Positions 728 to 36,213 of a DNA stretch of 36,213 nucleotides are shown here, piece by piece (within the stretch, counting starts at the first letter, position 1; the number at the start of each line of letters is the position of its first letter). Source of the stretch: a virus. A model generated the notes under the pieces. That model saw only the letters and a list, made by a program, of their open reading frames with translations. It was not told the DNA's origin and did not search any database. Both the position numbers and the translations under genes were made by a program. The stretch lies in the IMG/VR virus record IMGVR_UViG_3300043446_000736, positions 1-36,213 of that record; one strand, given 5' to 3'.

Positions 728-757
728 GCCCCAAGGGTAGGGCGTCAGACCCGGTGC

Positions 758-775
758 CCAACCTGACCAACCTCA
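758..775. repeat. Tandem 9-bp repeat CCAACCT(G/C)A
   Basis: Two adjacent 9-bp units, CCAACCTGA (758-766) and CCAACCTCA (767-775), sit between the gpZ-like gene and the hairpin at 788-809. The AACCT core recurs in opposite orientation at 837-860 and around the end of the primase gene. Confidence 0.45.
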
Positions 776-787
776 GCTCTTCCGCAA

Positions 788-809
788 AAGGGGGTAAATA
801 GCCCCCCTT
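788..809 (-). terminator. Probable intrinsic terminator (minus-strand direction)
   Basis: AAGGGGG (788-794) and CCCCCTT (803-809) form a 7-bp stem with an 8-nt loop. On the minus strand the stem is followed at once by T residues (CCCCCTTTT). It lies about 80 nt past the stop of the primase-helicase gene and about 60 nt before the gpZ-like start, so it would separate replication from late transcription or act as an attenuator. Confidence 0.6.
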
Positions 810-814
810 ACTCC

Positions 815-860
815 TTATTAAATATACTCTATTACTAAGGTTAGGAGGTTAGGAGGTTAG
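815..860. promoter_or_regulatory. AT-rich tract with three 8-bp direct repeats: candidate origin or late promoter
   Basis: Three tandem 8-bp units, AAGGTTAG (837-844), GAGGTTAG (845-852) and GAGGTTAG (853-860), abut a run of about 24 nearly GC-free bases (815-838) in a GC-rich genome. Repeats beside an easily melted tract next to the primase gene are typical of replication origins. Alternatively, read on the minus strand, a TATATT hexamer (821-826) could be a -10 box, with the repeats covering the -35 area as activator sites and the 788-809 hairpin just downstream as a conditional terminator. The sequence alone does not decide between these. Confidence 0.5.
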
Positions 861-885
861 TAGAGGGACTGCAGCACAGCGGATC

Positions 886-2949
886 TCAGCTCCCAACCAT
901 TTTGTGCGAGGTTGGGAGTTTGTACACCCAACGCCGCTTACCCCCTGAACAGTCCCGATACTTGTCGCAACCGAGATCCTTGAGAATGGATGCGACCTGC
1001 ATTTGATCGCCCTTCGTTTGACGCTCGAGCGGCTTCTGAATTGCGTTGGTTAGCACCTCCTCCGTGGTGATCGGATCGATGCTGATGCGACGTGCGAGGT
1101 ACTCCTGCACGGCCGAGTGCCATGGGTTTGAGACCAGGTAAGACTCGTTTTCAGACTCGACCTGTGCTTCCAGCTCATATGGCAGATGATTGGCCTCGCC
1201 ATTGCGGTAAGCGGCTACGGCTGCCGACCAAATCGCATCACGCTCAAGCAGCAGGCCATCAACGGCGATGTGGGGTGTAGCAGCGACAGGGATGACCCAG
1301 AAGCGACGGTTGCCGGTGTCATCCACCAAGAAGCCGCTGTCGCGGTTGGTGGAGCCGACGATGATGCAGCGCCTAGGGAAGTCCTCCGTGGCCTTGCCAT
1401 AGGGGACACGGAAGGTATCGGTCTGTTGCGACAGGAACGCCTTGACCTGGCCTGCGTGGCGCCGTCCCGTGAGATGGTCCAGCTCTGCCCACTCCATCAA
1501 CCAACACCGATGGAGCACCATCAGGTCGTCCTTGCTGGATACATCGCGCAAAGCATCGGAGAAAAAGGCACCGCCGAGGTTGCGCCAGAAGGTGGACTTG
1601 CCGCAGCCTTGTGGTCCCATGAGCACGCAGGCCGAGTCGTGCTTGCTGCCGGGCTCATAGATGCGACGCACCGCTGCGATGAGCGTGGCGCGCAGCATGG
1701 CGTCATAGAGGGTGCCGGGTTGATCGGCTGGGCGGATGTAAGCAGTAGCTAGGTGATCAATGGAGACAGGTGGGACTTCTTCTGAGACTCGATCGAGGTA
1801 TTCACGAACGGGGTCGAAGCGGTTGGCCTGGGCGACGTAGACGATTGCATCAGCAGCCAGCTCCTTGGAAACCTTGATTCCCATCTGCGCGAACTGAAGG
1901 TAGTAGTGCTCCAGGCTTTGAATGGGCTTGGCATCTAGCTCAATGTTCTGGGTGTAGATGTTGAAGCGCAGGCGATCGCCGAGCTGCTGGCGGATCAGGG
2001 TGAGCAGCTCATCGGTTTCGAGCTTGATGGCCTTGCCACCACCAGCAGCTTCGATTGCTGCTGCTTTGGGGTTGGCATCACCAAGGGCAGCCTTGAGGGC
2101 ATTGACTGCCACTTGGCGTGGGGAGATGCCACCAGCGAGGTGGTAGAGGGTGCCGAGGCCAACGCCGCCGGAGTCTGACTTGAAGGTTGACCACTTGTGC
2201 TCGCACTCACCGGCCTTGAATTTGCCGGAGCCAGCAGACCACTGGATCCAGTCAGCGAGGAGCGCATCATTGCCGACGCTATGGAGTGCCATGCCGACCT
2301 TGATCCACTCGTCGTAGTCATCTGCAAGGCTGGATGGGATGTTGCTGAGGTAGGCGCGAGCTTGCTCAGCGTCTTCTGAGGGGTTGGGGATATGGATCAG
2401 CGGGGGGATGTCTGGGCCGCGCATCATCTGCTGCAACAGCACGGATGGCGCCTCTGCGATCGGCAGATCGCCGGGGGCGCGGCCATTCAGCCAGCGGTAG
2501 GAGCCAGTGATGGGGTGCTTGCCGAGCACAACGGATTGGCAGCCGGTCCAGCGCAGCTCGAGCTGCTCGCCCTTGATTGAGCTGCGGAGTTTGGTGGTCT
2601 TGATCTGATCCCAGAATCCCTGCGGCACCTGGTAAATGATCTGCAGGCGGCCATCGCGGCCGGAGGTGACTGCCCAGGATTTCGGCAGATCGCGCAGTGA
2701 GGTACCGAAGGACTCGAGCACCTCCGAGGCACCGAGGCCATCGTGATCAACGAACAGCAGACCACCGGAGGGTGGTCCGGCGAGAACGCCAACGGCTACG
2801 GCACGGCCGGCGTGCAGTTCAGCTTCGAGTTGGCGCTTGCTGAGGGGATTCTTCTGCCACTCGGGTTGATAGGGTCGTTTGTCGTTACCGACTGCGACAA
2901 GTGCCCAGGAATCGGGGATGTCTGCGAGTTGATCGATGATGGCGGCCAC
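886..2949 (-). CDS. VapE-family primase-polymerase/helicase replication protein
   Basis: This 687-residue multidomain replication protein combines primer synthesis with DNA unwinding. Residues 1-170 look like a bifunctional primase/polymerase domain (VDHD at 67-70; KHPITGSYRW around 144-153). Residues 195-272 resemble a PriCT-2 linker (AYLSNIP, EWIKVGMALH, CEHKWSTF). Residues 375-600 are a VapE / superfamily 3-like ATPase: Walker A GPQGCGKS at 445-452, an acidic Walker B (LMEWAEL, 484-490), the sensor VGSTNRD (531-537) and the arginine motif GNRRFW (546-551). The start is GTG at 2949 with no good Shine-Dalgarno; the next gene upstream ends about 55 nt away. Together with the helicase and VRR-NUC genes it forms a leftward replication cluster. 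The family is clear; the polymerase activity is inferred. Confidence 0.93.
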   Translation of the reverse strand: MAAIIDQLADIPDSWALVAVGNDKRPYQPEWQKNPLSKRQLEAELHAGRAVAVGVLAGPPSGGLLFVDHDGLGASEVLESFGTSLRDLPKSWAVTSGRDGRLQIIYQVPQGFWDQIKTTKLRSSIKGEQLELRWTGCQSVVLGKHPITGSYRWLNGRAPGDLPIAEAPSVLLQQMMRGPDIPPLIHIPNPSEDAEQARAYLSNIPSSLADDYDEWIKVGMALHSVGNDALLADWIQWSAGSGKFKAGECEHKWSTFKSDSGGVGLGTLYHLAGGISPRQVAVNALKAALGDANPKAAAIEAAGGGKAIKLETDELLTLIRQQLGDRLRFNIYTQNIELDAKPIQSLEHYYLQFAQMGIKVSKELAADAIVYVAQANRFDPVREYLDRVSEEVPPVSIDHLATAYIRPADQPGTLYDAMLRATLIAAVRRIYEPGSKHDSACVLMGPQGCGKSTFWRNLGGAFFSDALRDVSSKDDLMVLHRCWLMEWAELDHLTGRRHAGQVKAFLSQQTDTFRVPYGKATEDFPRRCIIVGSTNRDSGFLVDDTGNRRFWVIPVAATPHIAVDGLLLERDAIWSAAVAAYRNGEANHLPYELEAQVESENESYLVSNPWHSAVQEYLARRISIDPITTEEVLTNAIQKPLERQTKGDQMQVASILKDLGCDKYRDCSGGKRRWVYKLPTSHKMVGS
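890..918 (-). other. 9-bp inverted repeat at the 3' end of the primase gene
   Basis: CTCCCAACC (890-898) pairs perfectly with GGTTGGGAG (910-918) around an 11-nt loop, overlapping the last codons of the primase-helicase gene. There is no T-tract. The same GAGGTTGGGA 10-mer recurs just upstream of that gene (2993-3002), so a binding site is as likely as an RNA hairpin. Confidence 0.4.
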
Positions 2950-2990
2950 GTCGGCTCTGCGCGATAGCCGTCAGAGTGTGGCCTAAGGAT

Positions 2991-3003
2991 GGGAGGTTGG
3001 GAA
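2991..3003. promoter_or_regulatory. GAGGTTGGGA box upstream of the primase gene
   Basis: GGGAGGTTGGGAAG occupies the 55-nt gap before the primase start. The 10-mer GAGGTTGGGA (2993-3002) is identical to 908-917 at the other end of the same gene. It may be a regulator or replication-protein site; two copies alone could be chance. Confidence 0.25.
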
Positions 3004-3004
3004 G

Positions 3005-3355
3005 CTATCCCAAGATTTCATTCGCGTCCCGGACTGAACGGGCCACACCAGCGATGCCACCAGCATTATGGACAGCACCTAGCCAGGCCTGCTGGGCAGG
3101 GGTGAGGCGGCCTGATGGCGTCTTGATCTCAAGGCTGGTGAACACAGCTACCCGTTGGCCGACCATCTCGGGAGTGATGACTACCGAGCGCCAGCCGATG
3201 AGATCAGCGGATCCGCGGGCGAGGCCGAACTGAACGGGGCGGCCAGTGCGTGGATCTGGGAGCTGACCGACCTGATTACGGAACAGACGGAGATCAGGGC
3301 GGGTGCCAAGTGCGAGGCGGATGCGCTGCTGGATGTCGGTCTCAGCGTTGGCCAC
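3005..3355 (-). CDS. VRR-NUC domain nuclease
   Basis: This 116-residue stand-alone VRR-NUC protein belongs to the PD-(D/E)xK fold. Visible motifs are the N-terminal acidic residue in the ETDIQQRIR helix, RNQVG, GSADLIG (the catalytic Asp), and LEIKTPSG (the E-x-K pair), followed by the basic LTPAQQAWL helix. Such small nucleases are common in phage replication modules, usually beside an SF2 helicase, and are thought to process branched or flap DNA. The start is GTG at 3355, overlapping the helicase 3' end by 14 nt, so translation is probably coupled. Confidence 0.9.
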   Translation of the reverse strand: MANAETDIQQRIRLALGTRPDLRLFRNQVGQLPDPRTGRPVQFGLARGSADLIGWRSVVITPEMVGQRVAVFTSLEIKTPSGRLTPAQQAWLGAVHNAGGIAGVARSVRDANEILG

Positions 3356-4694
3356 GCGCCTGATGGATCCGGTATGCCCAGCCGGGACTGTAACCGCGCT
3401 CCTTGGCGAGAGCTAGGAGCTGCTCGAGGGTGCGTGCGGCACCCTGGGCGCGCCGTGCGATGCGCATCTCGGAGCGGCGGAGTTCCTGCAGCTCACCTGC
3501 TAGTTGGCGGATGACGCGCGACTTGATCGGTGCGCATTGTGCGCCGCAGCATGGGCAGATCGGCGCCGGCTTGAAGGCGGCGTAGCACTCCGGGCATGTG
3601 CGGACTGATGGCGCTTTGGCGGTTGCGGTACGTCGGATGCCATCGGCCAATGTCCAGTCGTGGGGATCATCCGGAAAGCCATGGCGGGAGACGTTGCCAA
3701 CGTGATCGAGGATTGTGGCGGCCTGCTTGCCCGGCGCTGGGCGAAGGACACGGCCGACCTGCTGCAGGTAAAGGCTGAGCGACTTGGTGGGGCGGAGCAG
3801 AATGGCGCAGCTTGCAGCCGGCACATCGAAGCCCTCGGAGACCACATCAACGGTCACCAAGATCTGCACCAAGCCGGCACCAAAATCTGCAACGACCTGA
3901 TCGCGGTCGGTAGTGGTGCCAAGGAGTAGTACCGCTCGGATGCCGGCGGCCAGAAACGCAGCGCAAACGGATTCGGCGTGGGCGACATTGCAGCAGAAGG
4001 CGATGGCCTGCTGGCCTGCTGCCAGGCGCTGGTAGTGGCTGATGGCATCGCCTGTGACGGATGGTCGATCCATGGCTGCAGCGGCCTGATCGTTGGCGTA
4101 GTCACCAGCTCGGGTGCGGATGGCGGACAGATCGGCCACCTGCGGCGGCGCGTAGATCCGCGCGGGTGTCAGAAACTTGCAATCGATCAGCTCGGCGACC
4201 GATGGACCGATGACGAGGTGATCGAAGGTGGCACCAAGGCCGCGGCCGTCCAATCTGCAAGGGGTCGCACTGACCCCCAAGCGATAGGCATCAGGCCAGT
4301 GCTCGAGGATCTTGCTCCACGAGCCTGCGGCGGCGTGATGGGCTTCATCGATGATGATCAGATCCGGCTGCCAGTCGATTCGAGGTAGGCGGCGGATCAG
4401 CGTCTGGACCGAGGCGACTTGGACAGGATGGCTGGACAGGTTGAAGCCAGCGGCGATGATGCCGTGCTCGACACCTGCCCATGTGAGCTTGGCTGATGCC
4501 TGATGGATCAGCTCACGGCGATGGACGAGGATCAGCACACGGCGGCCGCGGCCTGCTGATGCGTGGGTGATGGCGGCGAAGACGATGGTCTTGCCGCCGC
4601 CGGTTGGTAGGCATAGCAGCGGTGCGCGGTAGCCGTAGCGGTAAGCAGTGCGCAGATCATCGATGGCTCGCTGCTGGTAGGTGCGGAGCTGCAT
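3342..4694 (-). CDS. Superfamily 2 DEAD/DEAH-box helicase (SSL2/RecQ-like)
   Basis: This 450-residue protein has full SF2 helicase motifs: a Q-like TYQQRAI at the N-terminus, Walker A PTGGGKT (30-36), DEAHH (116-120), SATP (142-145), and a QQVGRVLRP motif VI near residue 325. A C-terminal zinc ribbon (CPEC ... CPCCGAQC, about 375-400) is followed by a basic helical tail. It is the first gene of the leftward replication cluster and translationally overlaps the VRR-NUC nuclease. This helicase-nuclease pair is a common phage module and probably remodels replication or recombination intermediates. It starts with ATG at 4694, back to back with the exonuclease gene on the other strand. Confidence 0.93.
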   Translation of the reverse strand: MQLRTYQQRAIDDLRTAYRYGYRAPLLCLPTGGGKTIVFAAITHASAGRGRRVLILVHRRELIHQASAKLTWAGVEHGIIAAGFNLSSHPVQVASVQTLIRRLPRIDWQPDLIIIDEAHHAAAGSWSKILEHWPDAYRLGVSATPCRLDGRGLGATFDHLVIGPSVAELIDCKFLTPARIYAPPQVADLSAIRTRAGDYANDQAAAAMDRPSVTGDAISHYQRLAAGQQAIAFCCNVAHAESVCAAFLAAGIRAVLLLGTTTDRDQVVADFGAGLVQILVTVDVVSEGFDVPAASCAILLRPTKSLSLYLQQVGRVLRPAPGKQAATILDHVGNVSRHGFPDDPHDWTLADGIRRTATAKAPSVRTCPECYAAFKPAPICPCCGAQCAPIKSRVIRQLAGELQELRRSEMRIARRAQGAARTLEQLLALAKERGYSPGWAYRIHQARGQR

Positions 4695-34397: not shown

Positions 34398-34890
34398 TCA
34401 AGCCCTCCAGCGCCTGCCCGATTTCCTTCAGCAGCAAAGCATGGATCGCAGCCTGGTCAGTCTCGGCTGCCACGATCGGTGCCACGCGATCCGGGATCGT
34501 GCGCAGCGCGTCGCGCACTCCCATATGCACCTTGGCCAGCTTCATCTTCAGCTCCGCCTTATCCACCAACTTGCCGCTGCGCTGCTTGAATTCCAACTCG
34601 CTCAGCTTCGCCGCGAACGCCTCCCTGATAGCCCGGCTTCTAGCAAAGCTCGGCACCGCACGTTCATCCGCCTGCTGCCGCCGTAAACTGTCATCCACCT
34701 GCGTACCAGGTGATGAGCCACCACGGTCCGGCGATCGGCTAGCAGCGATCTCACGGTCCAACGCTTGCGGATCCGAAATCACATAGCTCCGCCCTTCACG
34801 TTTGATCTGCGTCAGCCGCCCCGTCTGCGCCCAGCGCGCAAGCGTCTGATAGCTCTTGCCCCTGCTCTCCGCATACTCCCGCAGGTTCAT
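34381..34890 (-). CDS. Terminase small subunit (Nu1-like)
   Basis: In this 169-residue protein, residues 1-50 are a winged HTH (NLREYAESRGKSYQTLARWAQTGRL, then TQIKREGRSYVI) like lambda Nu1, which binds the cos-adjacent sites. A charged linker follows, then a helical part (ELEFKQRSGKLVDKAELKMKLAKV, MGVRDALRTIPDRVAPIVA) for oligomer formation and large-subunit binding. A good Shine-Dalgarno (GAGGAG) lies 6 nt before ATG 34890, and it shares 4 nt with the methyltransferase stop. In lambda, cos abuts this gene; here the methyltransferase gene lies between. Confidence 0.88.
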   Translation of the reverse strand: MNLREYAESRGKSYQTLARWAQTGRLTQIKREGRSYVISDPQALDREIAASRSPDRGGSSPGTQVDDSLRRQQADERAVPSFARSRAIREAFAAKLSELEFKQRSGKLVDKAELKMKLAKVHMGVRDALRTIPDRVAPIVAAETDQAAIHALLLKEIGQALEGLSGSTD

Positions 34891-36137
34891 GCCGGCTCCT
34901 CAAGCGTGGCCAACTTGCCGGTAAATGCCTGCCATCGCTGCACAATCACATCGCAGTAGCGCGGGTCCAGCTCCATCAGGCGCGCCTTGCGGCCGGTCTT
35001 CTCGCACGCAATCAAGGTGCTGCCGGAGCCGCCAAAGAGGTCAAGCACAATGGCCTTGCTCTTGGCGGAATTTTCCAAAGCAATTTCGATCAACGGGATC
35101 GGCTTTTGCGTCGGATGCACCGTGCCCGTAGTCGGCCGGCTCACCGTCCAGACGGTTGTCGTCTTGCGATCGCCAGCGTTGTATGGGTTACCTCTTGACG
35201 CATAAAAGCATGGCTCATGCAGCCAGCGGAAATCAGAGCGACCGATTGCAGGCGCCTTGACTTGAGCAGTTCCATCAACTCCTTCACCTTTGACCCAAAT
35301 GATTTGCTGCTTTACCTGAACAGCGCAAGCGTTCAAGGCATTCTCAAACTCGCGCTGATACCTGCTGGCGTGCCAGACATACCAAGGCGCATCTGAAACC
35401 GACGCGGCAACGGCAGACGAAAATGCGCTTTGCAGAAACTCCTGCAGATCACCATCGGTCAACTCATCATTCTTAATGCTTCGCCCAAGGCTGTCGGTGT
35501 AGCTCACCCCATAGGGCGGATCAGTGAACACCATGTCCGCCTTCTCGCCAGCCATCAGCCGCTCCACATCAGTCAGCGATGTGCTATCTCCGCACATCAA
35601 CCGATGCTTTCCCAGCAGCCACACATCACCAGGCTTGCTGATCGGCTCCTCAGGTGGCTCAGGCACCGCCTCATCGTCCGCATCCTCAGGCGGCAACTCC
35701 TCCACCTCCGGGAGCAAATCCTCCAGCTCCTCATCGCTAAAGCCGATCACGCTCAGATCAAAGTCATCCGCCACCAAGTCCTGCAGCTCAGTGCGCAGCA
35801 ACTCAAGATCCCAACCAGCGTTCAGCGCGAGCTGGTTGTCAGCCAGCACATACGCACGCCGCTGCCGATCACTCAGGTGATCCAACACCACCACTGGCAC
35901 CGTGCTCAGGCCAAGCTCGCGCGCTGCCTGCAGTCGGCCATGGCCAGCAATGATCCCATCACCCGAATCAACCAAGATCGGGTTGGTGAAACCGAACTCC
36001 ACAATCGACGCAGCGATCTGCGCCACCTGTTCAGCGCTATGCGTCCTTGCGTTGCGTTCGTAAGGCTTAAGTCGATCTAAAGGCCACAGTTCAATCCTCT
36101 GCGCCATCTGGATTGACAGCTTCGGTTCCTCAGTCAT
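34887..36137 (-). CDS. ParB-like N-domain fused to beta-class DNA methyltransferase
   Basis: In this 416-residue protein, residues 13-115 are a ParB/Srx-type domain (LDRLKPYERNARTHSAEQVAQIAASI, NPILVDSGDGIIAGHGRLQAARELGL, DNQLALNAGWD). Residues 160-410 are an N6-adenine or N4-cytosine methyltransferase with TDPPYGVSY (motif IV) preceding the SAM motif LDLFGGSGST (motif I), the beta arrangement; VHPTQKP lies between. Such fusions are frequent near phage terminases and protect DNA from restriction. The target base and site cannot be read from sequence. ATG at 36137 is the first gene after the candidate cos junction, before the terminase. Confidence 0.93.
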   Translation of the reverse strand: MTEEPKLSIQMAQRIELWPLDRLKPYERNARTHSAEQVAQIAASIVEFGFTNPILVDSGDGIIAGHGRLQAARELGLSTVPVVVLDHLSDRQRRAYVLADNQLALNAGWDLELLRTELQDLVADDFDLSVIGFSDEELEDLLPEVEELPPEDADDEAVPEPPEEPISKPGDVWLLGKHRLMCGDSTSLTDVERLMAGEKADMVFTDPPYGVSYTDSLGRSIKNDELTDGDLQEFLQSAFSSAVAASVSDAPWYVWHASRYQREFENALNACAVQVKQQIIWVKGEGVDGTAQVKAPAIGRSDFRWLHEPCFYASRGNPYNAGDRKTTTVWTVSRPTTGTVHPTQKPIPLIEIALENSAKSKAIVLDLFGGSGSTLIACEKTGRKARLMELDPRYCDVIVQRWQAFTGKLATLEEPA

Positions 36138-36200: not shown

Positions 36201-36213
36201 CGCTTGGACGACC
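36201..36213. repeat. 13-bp terminal direct repeat (right copy)
   Basis: This is identical to bases 1-13. See the left copy. Joining the two ends over the repeat gives a circle of 36,200 bp. Confidence 0.6.

Follow-up and report, generated by a model that had tools for sequence, protein, structure and literature searches.

Positions 757-918 of the window, by which we mean the whole 36,213-base stretch of the virus record analysed here, very probably form the replication origin of a tailed phage, laid out on the pri-rep-ori plan of SaPI and PICI elements. The initial annotation had read this repeat-rich AT tract as either a replication origin or an antiterminated late promoter. The origin half of that proposal was strongly supported by a conserved plan, co-varying repeats, a repeat type that follows the primase and a GC skew minimum, whereas the half modelled on lambda pR'-tR' found no support.

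Layout of the candidate origin

The window carries the gene set of a tailed phage (terminase, portal, head, tail and endolysin) together with RecT, an exonuclease, a helicase and a primase. On the - strand near the site, VRR-NUC (3005-3355) is followed by the primase-helicase Rep (886-2949), a 158-nt gap (728-885), a minor tail protein (59-727) and the contig end. The gap falls at the early/late junction, and all late genes come after it on the - strand. By primase, the nearest isolate is Synechococcus phage S-LBS1 (57% identity over 79%). A scan of genome contigs for hosts or prophages gave four loci, apparently phage contigs binned in MAGs, and did not indicate a host. The features of the region are as follows.

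59-727, - strand: minor tail protein (phrog_1924), encoded by the gene that opens the late operon; flanking feature only
734-739, - strand: TACCCT, which may be the -10 box of a leaderless late promoter; adjacent to the origin, no part of it
757-774, + strand: right (Rep-distal) iterons, two 9-nt copies CCCAACCTG ACCAACCTC in opposite orientation; they track the Rep C-terminus
788-809, - strand: GC hairpin, at best a weak terminator; closest relatives only, no core part
800-816, - strand: purine/G-rich tract between the AT tract and the right iterons; in nearly all relatives
815-838, no strand: AT-rich tract, proposed DNA unwinding element; also AT-rich at this place in relatives
837-860, - strand: left (Rep-proximal) iterons, three tandem 8-nt copies, CTAACCTC CTAACCTC CTAACCTT on this strand
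886-2949, - strand: Rep primase-helicase, proposed initiator; Prim-Pol, PriCT_2, VapE (D5/SF3-like AAA+) and a C-terminal winged helix
890-918, no strand: dyad of two iterons face to face, overlapping the rep 3' end; co-varies with the left and right iterons
2986-3001, - strand: iteron pair, proposed autoregulatory operator, in the 55-nt space before rep

All the repeats, the hairpin, the inverted repeat and the AT tract that had been described were found at their places. The three 8-nt repeats at 837-860 read AAGGTTAG/GAGGTTAG/GAGGTTAG, and the sequence at 757-774, CCCAACCTGACCAACCTC, has a 9-nt period with one mismatch and runs in the opposite orientation. The tract noted as nearly free of GC has A/T at 21 of its 24 positions and is the most AT-rich 24-mer in the whole window. 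The perfect 9-bp inverted repeat CTCCCAACC/GGTTGGGAG (890-898/910-918) had been placed inside the gap, but it overlaps the 3' end of the primase gene, whose stop codon lies at 886-888; the dyad of 890-918 is exceptionally stable (z -4.4). The hairpin AAGGGGGTAAATAGCCCCCCTT, followed by TTTT on the - strand, had been called strong and turned out to be unexceptional, with a z of -1.2 as - strand RNA and at least equal stability in 27 of 200 shuffles. The iteron core matched seven times in 750-925 against 0.13 matches expected from the rest of the genome, a density about fifty times that elsewhere; the associated P of about 1e-10 is optimistic, because the core was defined after the sites had been seen.

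Conservation of the plan among relatives

Viral-contig scans returned 60 loci with the tail protein as query and 75 with Rep as query. Rep, the gap and the tail gene occurred together in 86 loci, some of which are the same contig twice, giving 55 distinct gap sequences from relatives that are not independent of one another. The initial annotation had made conservation of the repeats in relatives a test of its proposal, and the plan proved to be retained in dozens of related viruses. In the reading direction of Rep, the plan opens with a dyad at or just past the rep stop; then come some three tandem repeats, an AT-rich and after it a purine/G-rich tract, and finally two or three opposite repeats. 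Judged by eye from the alignment, nearly every gap follows this order, the least regular being L056 and L124. In dozens of distinct relatives, too, the iterons lie immediately 3' of the rep gene. Some Rep matches contained an in-frame stop, which turned out to be the normal stop within the dyad. The plan was also retained in further contigs with different genes inserted past the gap, which ties the right repeats to Rep instead of the tail gene. A second repeat, with the core GTCTCA/TGAGAC, lies near the iterons in relatives of the GTTCC type and in some further ones (L002, L018, L021, L044 and L131).

The hairpin with its T tract was confined to relatives with Rep about 89% identical or more. 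It was rejected as a core element, being missing outside the closest clade while the repeats and the AT tract persist. This distribution bears on a scarcely plausible alternative, in which the AT tract would be a promoter and the hairpin a terminator overcome by a phage antiterminator, as at lambda pR'-tR'. Such an arrangement would suit the early/late junction with all late genes downstream on the - strand, and the TTTT after the hairpin and its retention in the closest relatives agree with it; yet a sigma-70 promoter search of 600-1100 found no match, the AT tract included, the repeats follow Rep and not the late genes, and a better late-promoter candidate lies at the tail-gene ATG.

A candidate late promoter beside the tail gene

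Among 44 distinct sequences before the tail-gene ATG, T occurred at -12 in 40, A at -11 in 43, and T at -7 and C at -1 in all 44. The pattern TANNNT at -12 to -7 with C at -1 is thus nearly invariant at 728-739 (- strand) of the window and at the homologous sites, and T-12, A-11 and T-7 are spaced as in a -10 box whose transcript would begin with the A of the ATG. Across ten genomes, 11 of 691 candidate ATGs had T-12, A-11 and T-7, and nine of these 11 were, by position, the minor tail gene. These conserved -10-like letters at the right spacing place the late promoter, as a leaderless candidate, probably at 734-739. The earlier suggestion of a late promoter therefore holds for the neighbourhood, and probably not for the AT tract itself. 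The motif TACCCTTGG was considered as a part of the origin and rejected; it accompanies the tail gene even in genomes with an unrelated replication gene.

Repeat type follows the primase

The letters of the repeats vary between phages and agree within each phage. The repeat pair is TAACCTCC/AGGTTGG in the window, GTTCCTAC/GTAGGAAC in L002, L008, L021 and L044, and TGCCTCACC/GGTGGGGCA in L086 and L089. We assessed this agreement by a swap test on 24 representatives less than 85% identical in Rep, with P-values that correct for relatedness by thinning only. The results showed that the left iterons match their own right repeats over those of other phages in the opposite orientation (z 4.7; z 2.6 without the GTTCC group), whereas in the same orientation no fit was seen (z -1.1). 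The dyad region fitted both the left and the right sets (z 5.1 and 4.1, respectively).

The distance between right repeats was correlated with the distance between Rep C-termini (r 0.81), followed by the AAA+ part (0.74), the N-terminus (0.57) and the tail protein (0.23). Given the N-terminus, the value for the Rep C-terminus was still 0.71, while the partial correlation for the tail protein was 0.04 and not significant. These comparisons link the repeat type to the primase, most closely to its C-terminal winged-helix domain, and not to the adjoining tail gene.

A natural control was provided by relatives whose tail protein is 95-96% identical and whose primase is unrelated. At the same place they carry GTAAC/GTTAC repeats around an AT tract, and the AACCT-type array is absent there. 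The unrelated primase is of the Zn_Ribbon_Prim type and gave no real BLASTP match. Seven loci (L003, L004, L011, L037, L042, L048 and L055) show this arrangement within the 330 nt before the tail gene, with Zn_Ribbon_Prim present in the three tested, and their junction is read as a swapped Rep-origin cassette.

Could the repeats instead serve late-operon control, as binding sites for an activator or repressor, and play no part in replication? Short tandem sites by an AT-rich stretch near the start of the late operon would fit such an operator, as would the iteron pair over the rep promoter. We regard it as very unlikely, however, since the repeat type tracks the primase instead of the tail gene, genomes in which an unrelated primase replaces Rep carry other repeats, the skew minimum falls at the site, and the same plan occurs in a 3.1-kb plasmid.

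GC skew minimum at the site

A skew switch had been named as a check of the origin proposal, and it was found. We computed detrended cumulative GC skew for the window and 16 long relatives, each circular genome being linearised at the end of rep. The minimum lay at 0.93-0.99 of the genome in 14 of the 16, at 0.99 in the window and at 0.01 in S-LBS1, whose skew is weak; it was missing in two 31-kb relatives, which are probably incomplete contigs. Among the 14 relatives with the minimum at the site, 12 had their maximum at 0.51-0.61. The skew thus changes sign at the site and changes back about half a genome away, as expected of a bidirectional theta origin. At fourfold-degenerate sites, with gene orientation fitted, a leading/lagging effect of +0.06 to +0.16 was obtained in the window and those 14 relatives. 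Relative to the iterons, the minimum is shifted slightly towards the tail gene, by at most a few per cent of the genome length, and the maximum in S-LBS1, G002 and G003 is out of line with a simple bidirectional picture.

The genome ends lie close to the site. The window begins and ends with the same 13 nt, CGCTTGGACGACC (1-13 and 36201-36213), 13-nt end repeats of different sequence occur in G002, G007 and G011, and L009 and L016 read continuously across the end site with a single copy of the 13-nt repeat. On this evidence the 13-nt ends are read as cohesive ends (cos), about 60 nt past the tail gene. A ParB_N domain fused to an N6/N4 DNA methyltransferase is encoded at 34887-36137 (- strand), adjoining the terminase genes. 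With this protein encoded and the cohesive end about 0.8 kb off, the repeats might be imagined as partition or packaging sites that bind its ParB-like N-terminus or serve the terminase; this is extremely improbable, given that the cos-like end is a separate site and that the repeats track Rep.

Rep as the proposed initiator

Rep contains the Pfam domains PF09250, PF08707 and PF05272, and belongs to the VapE/D5 helicase type of initiator, which is sometimes fused to a primase. Its nearest solved structure is PriRep1 with dsDNA (PDB 7pds), by sequence (E 5e-27) and also as the best fold match, although the AAA+ core of the Rep model was poorly predicted. The last 75 residues are predicted to form three helices and a two-strand wing, and residues of about 611-677 correspond to a winged helix with the model order H-H-H-beta-beta. 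A fold search of the PDB with the C-terminal domain alone returned weak winged-helix matches only, PriRep1 included, and none below E 0.001.

Upstream of rep, the iteron pair at 2986-3001 overlaps a promoter-like TTCCCA-17-CACACT (2975-3003), 26-54 nt before the rep start. The pair is conserved; its co-variation reached z 4.1 with the right iterons and z 2.5 with the dyad region, while that with the left iterons was not significant. This position over a promoter-like element, together with its conservation and co-variation, suggests that Rep limits its own synthesis through the pair.

On the origin reading, we infer successive steps of binding, melting, helicase loading, priming and autoregulation. 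Rep, encoded directly upstream, would bind the iterons through its C-terminal winged helix at the dyad in the end of its own gene, at the three tandem sites on one side of the AT tract and at the two opposite sites on the other. Two oppositely facing Rep assemblies (hexamers) would then melt the AT tract, and the two hexameric VapE-type helicases so loaded would establish two forks, with the fused PrimPol domain laying primers. The circularised genome would thereby replicate bidirectionally, and Rep would probably also occupy the iteron pair over its own promoter. Binding and two-hexamer assembly are proposed by analogy with SaPI Rep and SCCmec Cch2.

Comparison with known replicons

The C-terminal domain of SaPI Rep binds iterons downstream of its gene (PMC7581432), and PICI origins, which always have an AT-rich region between two sets of iterons, are able to support the replication of a plasmid (PMC6092414). 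In the SaPI/PICI pri-rep-ori modules (SaPIbov1 of S. aureus, with PriRep1 of PDB 7pds, and EcCICFT073 of E. coli), the origin likewise lies directly 3' of the (pri-)rep gene, and the initiator is a VapE/D5-type helicase with a C-terminal DNA-binding domain, here a predicted one. Two iteron sets around an AT-rich tract are present here too, and their opposite orientation was confirmed by the swap test. Unlike these satellites, which depend on helper capsids, the present viruses are complete tailed phages that themselves encode a terminase, portal, head, tail and endolysin, and their sites differ in the iteron letters, the conserved dyad over the rep stop codon, the purine tract and the iteron pair over the rep promoter. 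Since the features that can be tested in sequence are found here in complete phages, the site appears to work like, and is probably homologous to, a PICI replicon, while the phage itself is no PICI.

At the putative origin of SCCmec Cch2, the initiator helicase uses its C-terminal domain to bind direct repeats that lie immediately downstream of the helicase gene, and inverted repeats are nearby; that system differs in its three AAGTG iterons and its separate primase-polymerase (eLife 2020, PMC7581432).

A closer match was found in the Microcystis aeruginosa plasmid p2-NIES88 (3117 bp), whose sole recognisable replication gene encodes a VapE protein 32% identical to Rep, aligned from Rep residue 310 on only. 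Downstream of this gene lie two copies of TGCCCTACCT, an AT tract and opposite AGGTAGGGCA copies, that is, the same plan with a near-identical repeat, on a plasmid instead of a phage. We know of no published origin for p2-NIES88. Other VapE plasmids (C. aponinum pAL20115c, Phormidium and Nostoc) showed no obvious iterons straight after the gene.

The lambda origin resembles the present site in combining iterons with an AT-rich stretch, and it directs bidirectional theta replication through the O protein. Its iterons lie inside gene O, and O is no helicase and recruits the host helicase via P.

Among isolates, S-LBS1 shares the plan, with CCTAACC three times, a moderately AT-rich and purine tract, GGTTGGGCA four times and dyads; the paper on this phage does not describe an origin. 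The last stretch of the S-LBS1 record (about 4500-4642 of locus L136) duplicates the region just before the iterons, probably a repeat-caused assembly artefact. In cyanophage S-2L (MW334946, locus L187), positions 2848-3206 after PrimPol contain the dyad GGCACAGTCCGTGCC, GTTGTGC twice, a purine/A tract and GGCACGACGGCACA. This stretch is a candidate origin of the 2-aminoadenine phage, with the same plan in different letters. In a literature search largely confined to journals outside subscription, no paper turned up that dealt with PriRep1 or described an origin for these cyanophages.

Implications

Few uncultured phages have a known replication origin. The type described here can be recognised directly in the sequence of dozens of aquatic, cyanophage-like siphoviruses, where initiator and matching sites adjoin each other; the isolates S-LBS1 and S-2L are predicted to have origins of this type. 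A wider reading, which we hold to be rather unlikely, takes the whole junction as an exchangeable initiator-origin cassette, in which unrelated primases each bring their own iterons around an AT tract, and at the same time supposes that, through the distal iterons near the leaderless late promoter, late transcription is timed by Rep binding or by the firing of forks; if true, replication would be tied directly to the late switch. The replicon plan, once described as peculiar to phage satellites, is now seen in complete phages, which bears on where the satellites obtained it, and the variation of iteron letters with the Rep C-terminus offers a data set for learning the rules by which this winged helix reads DNA.
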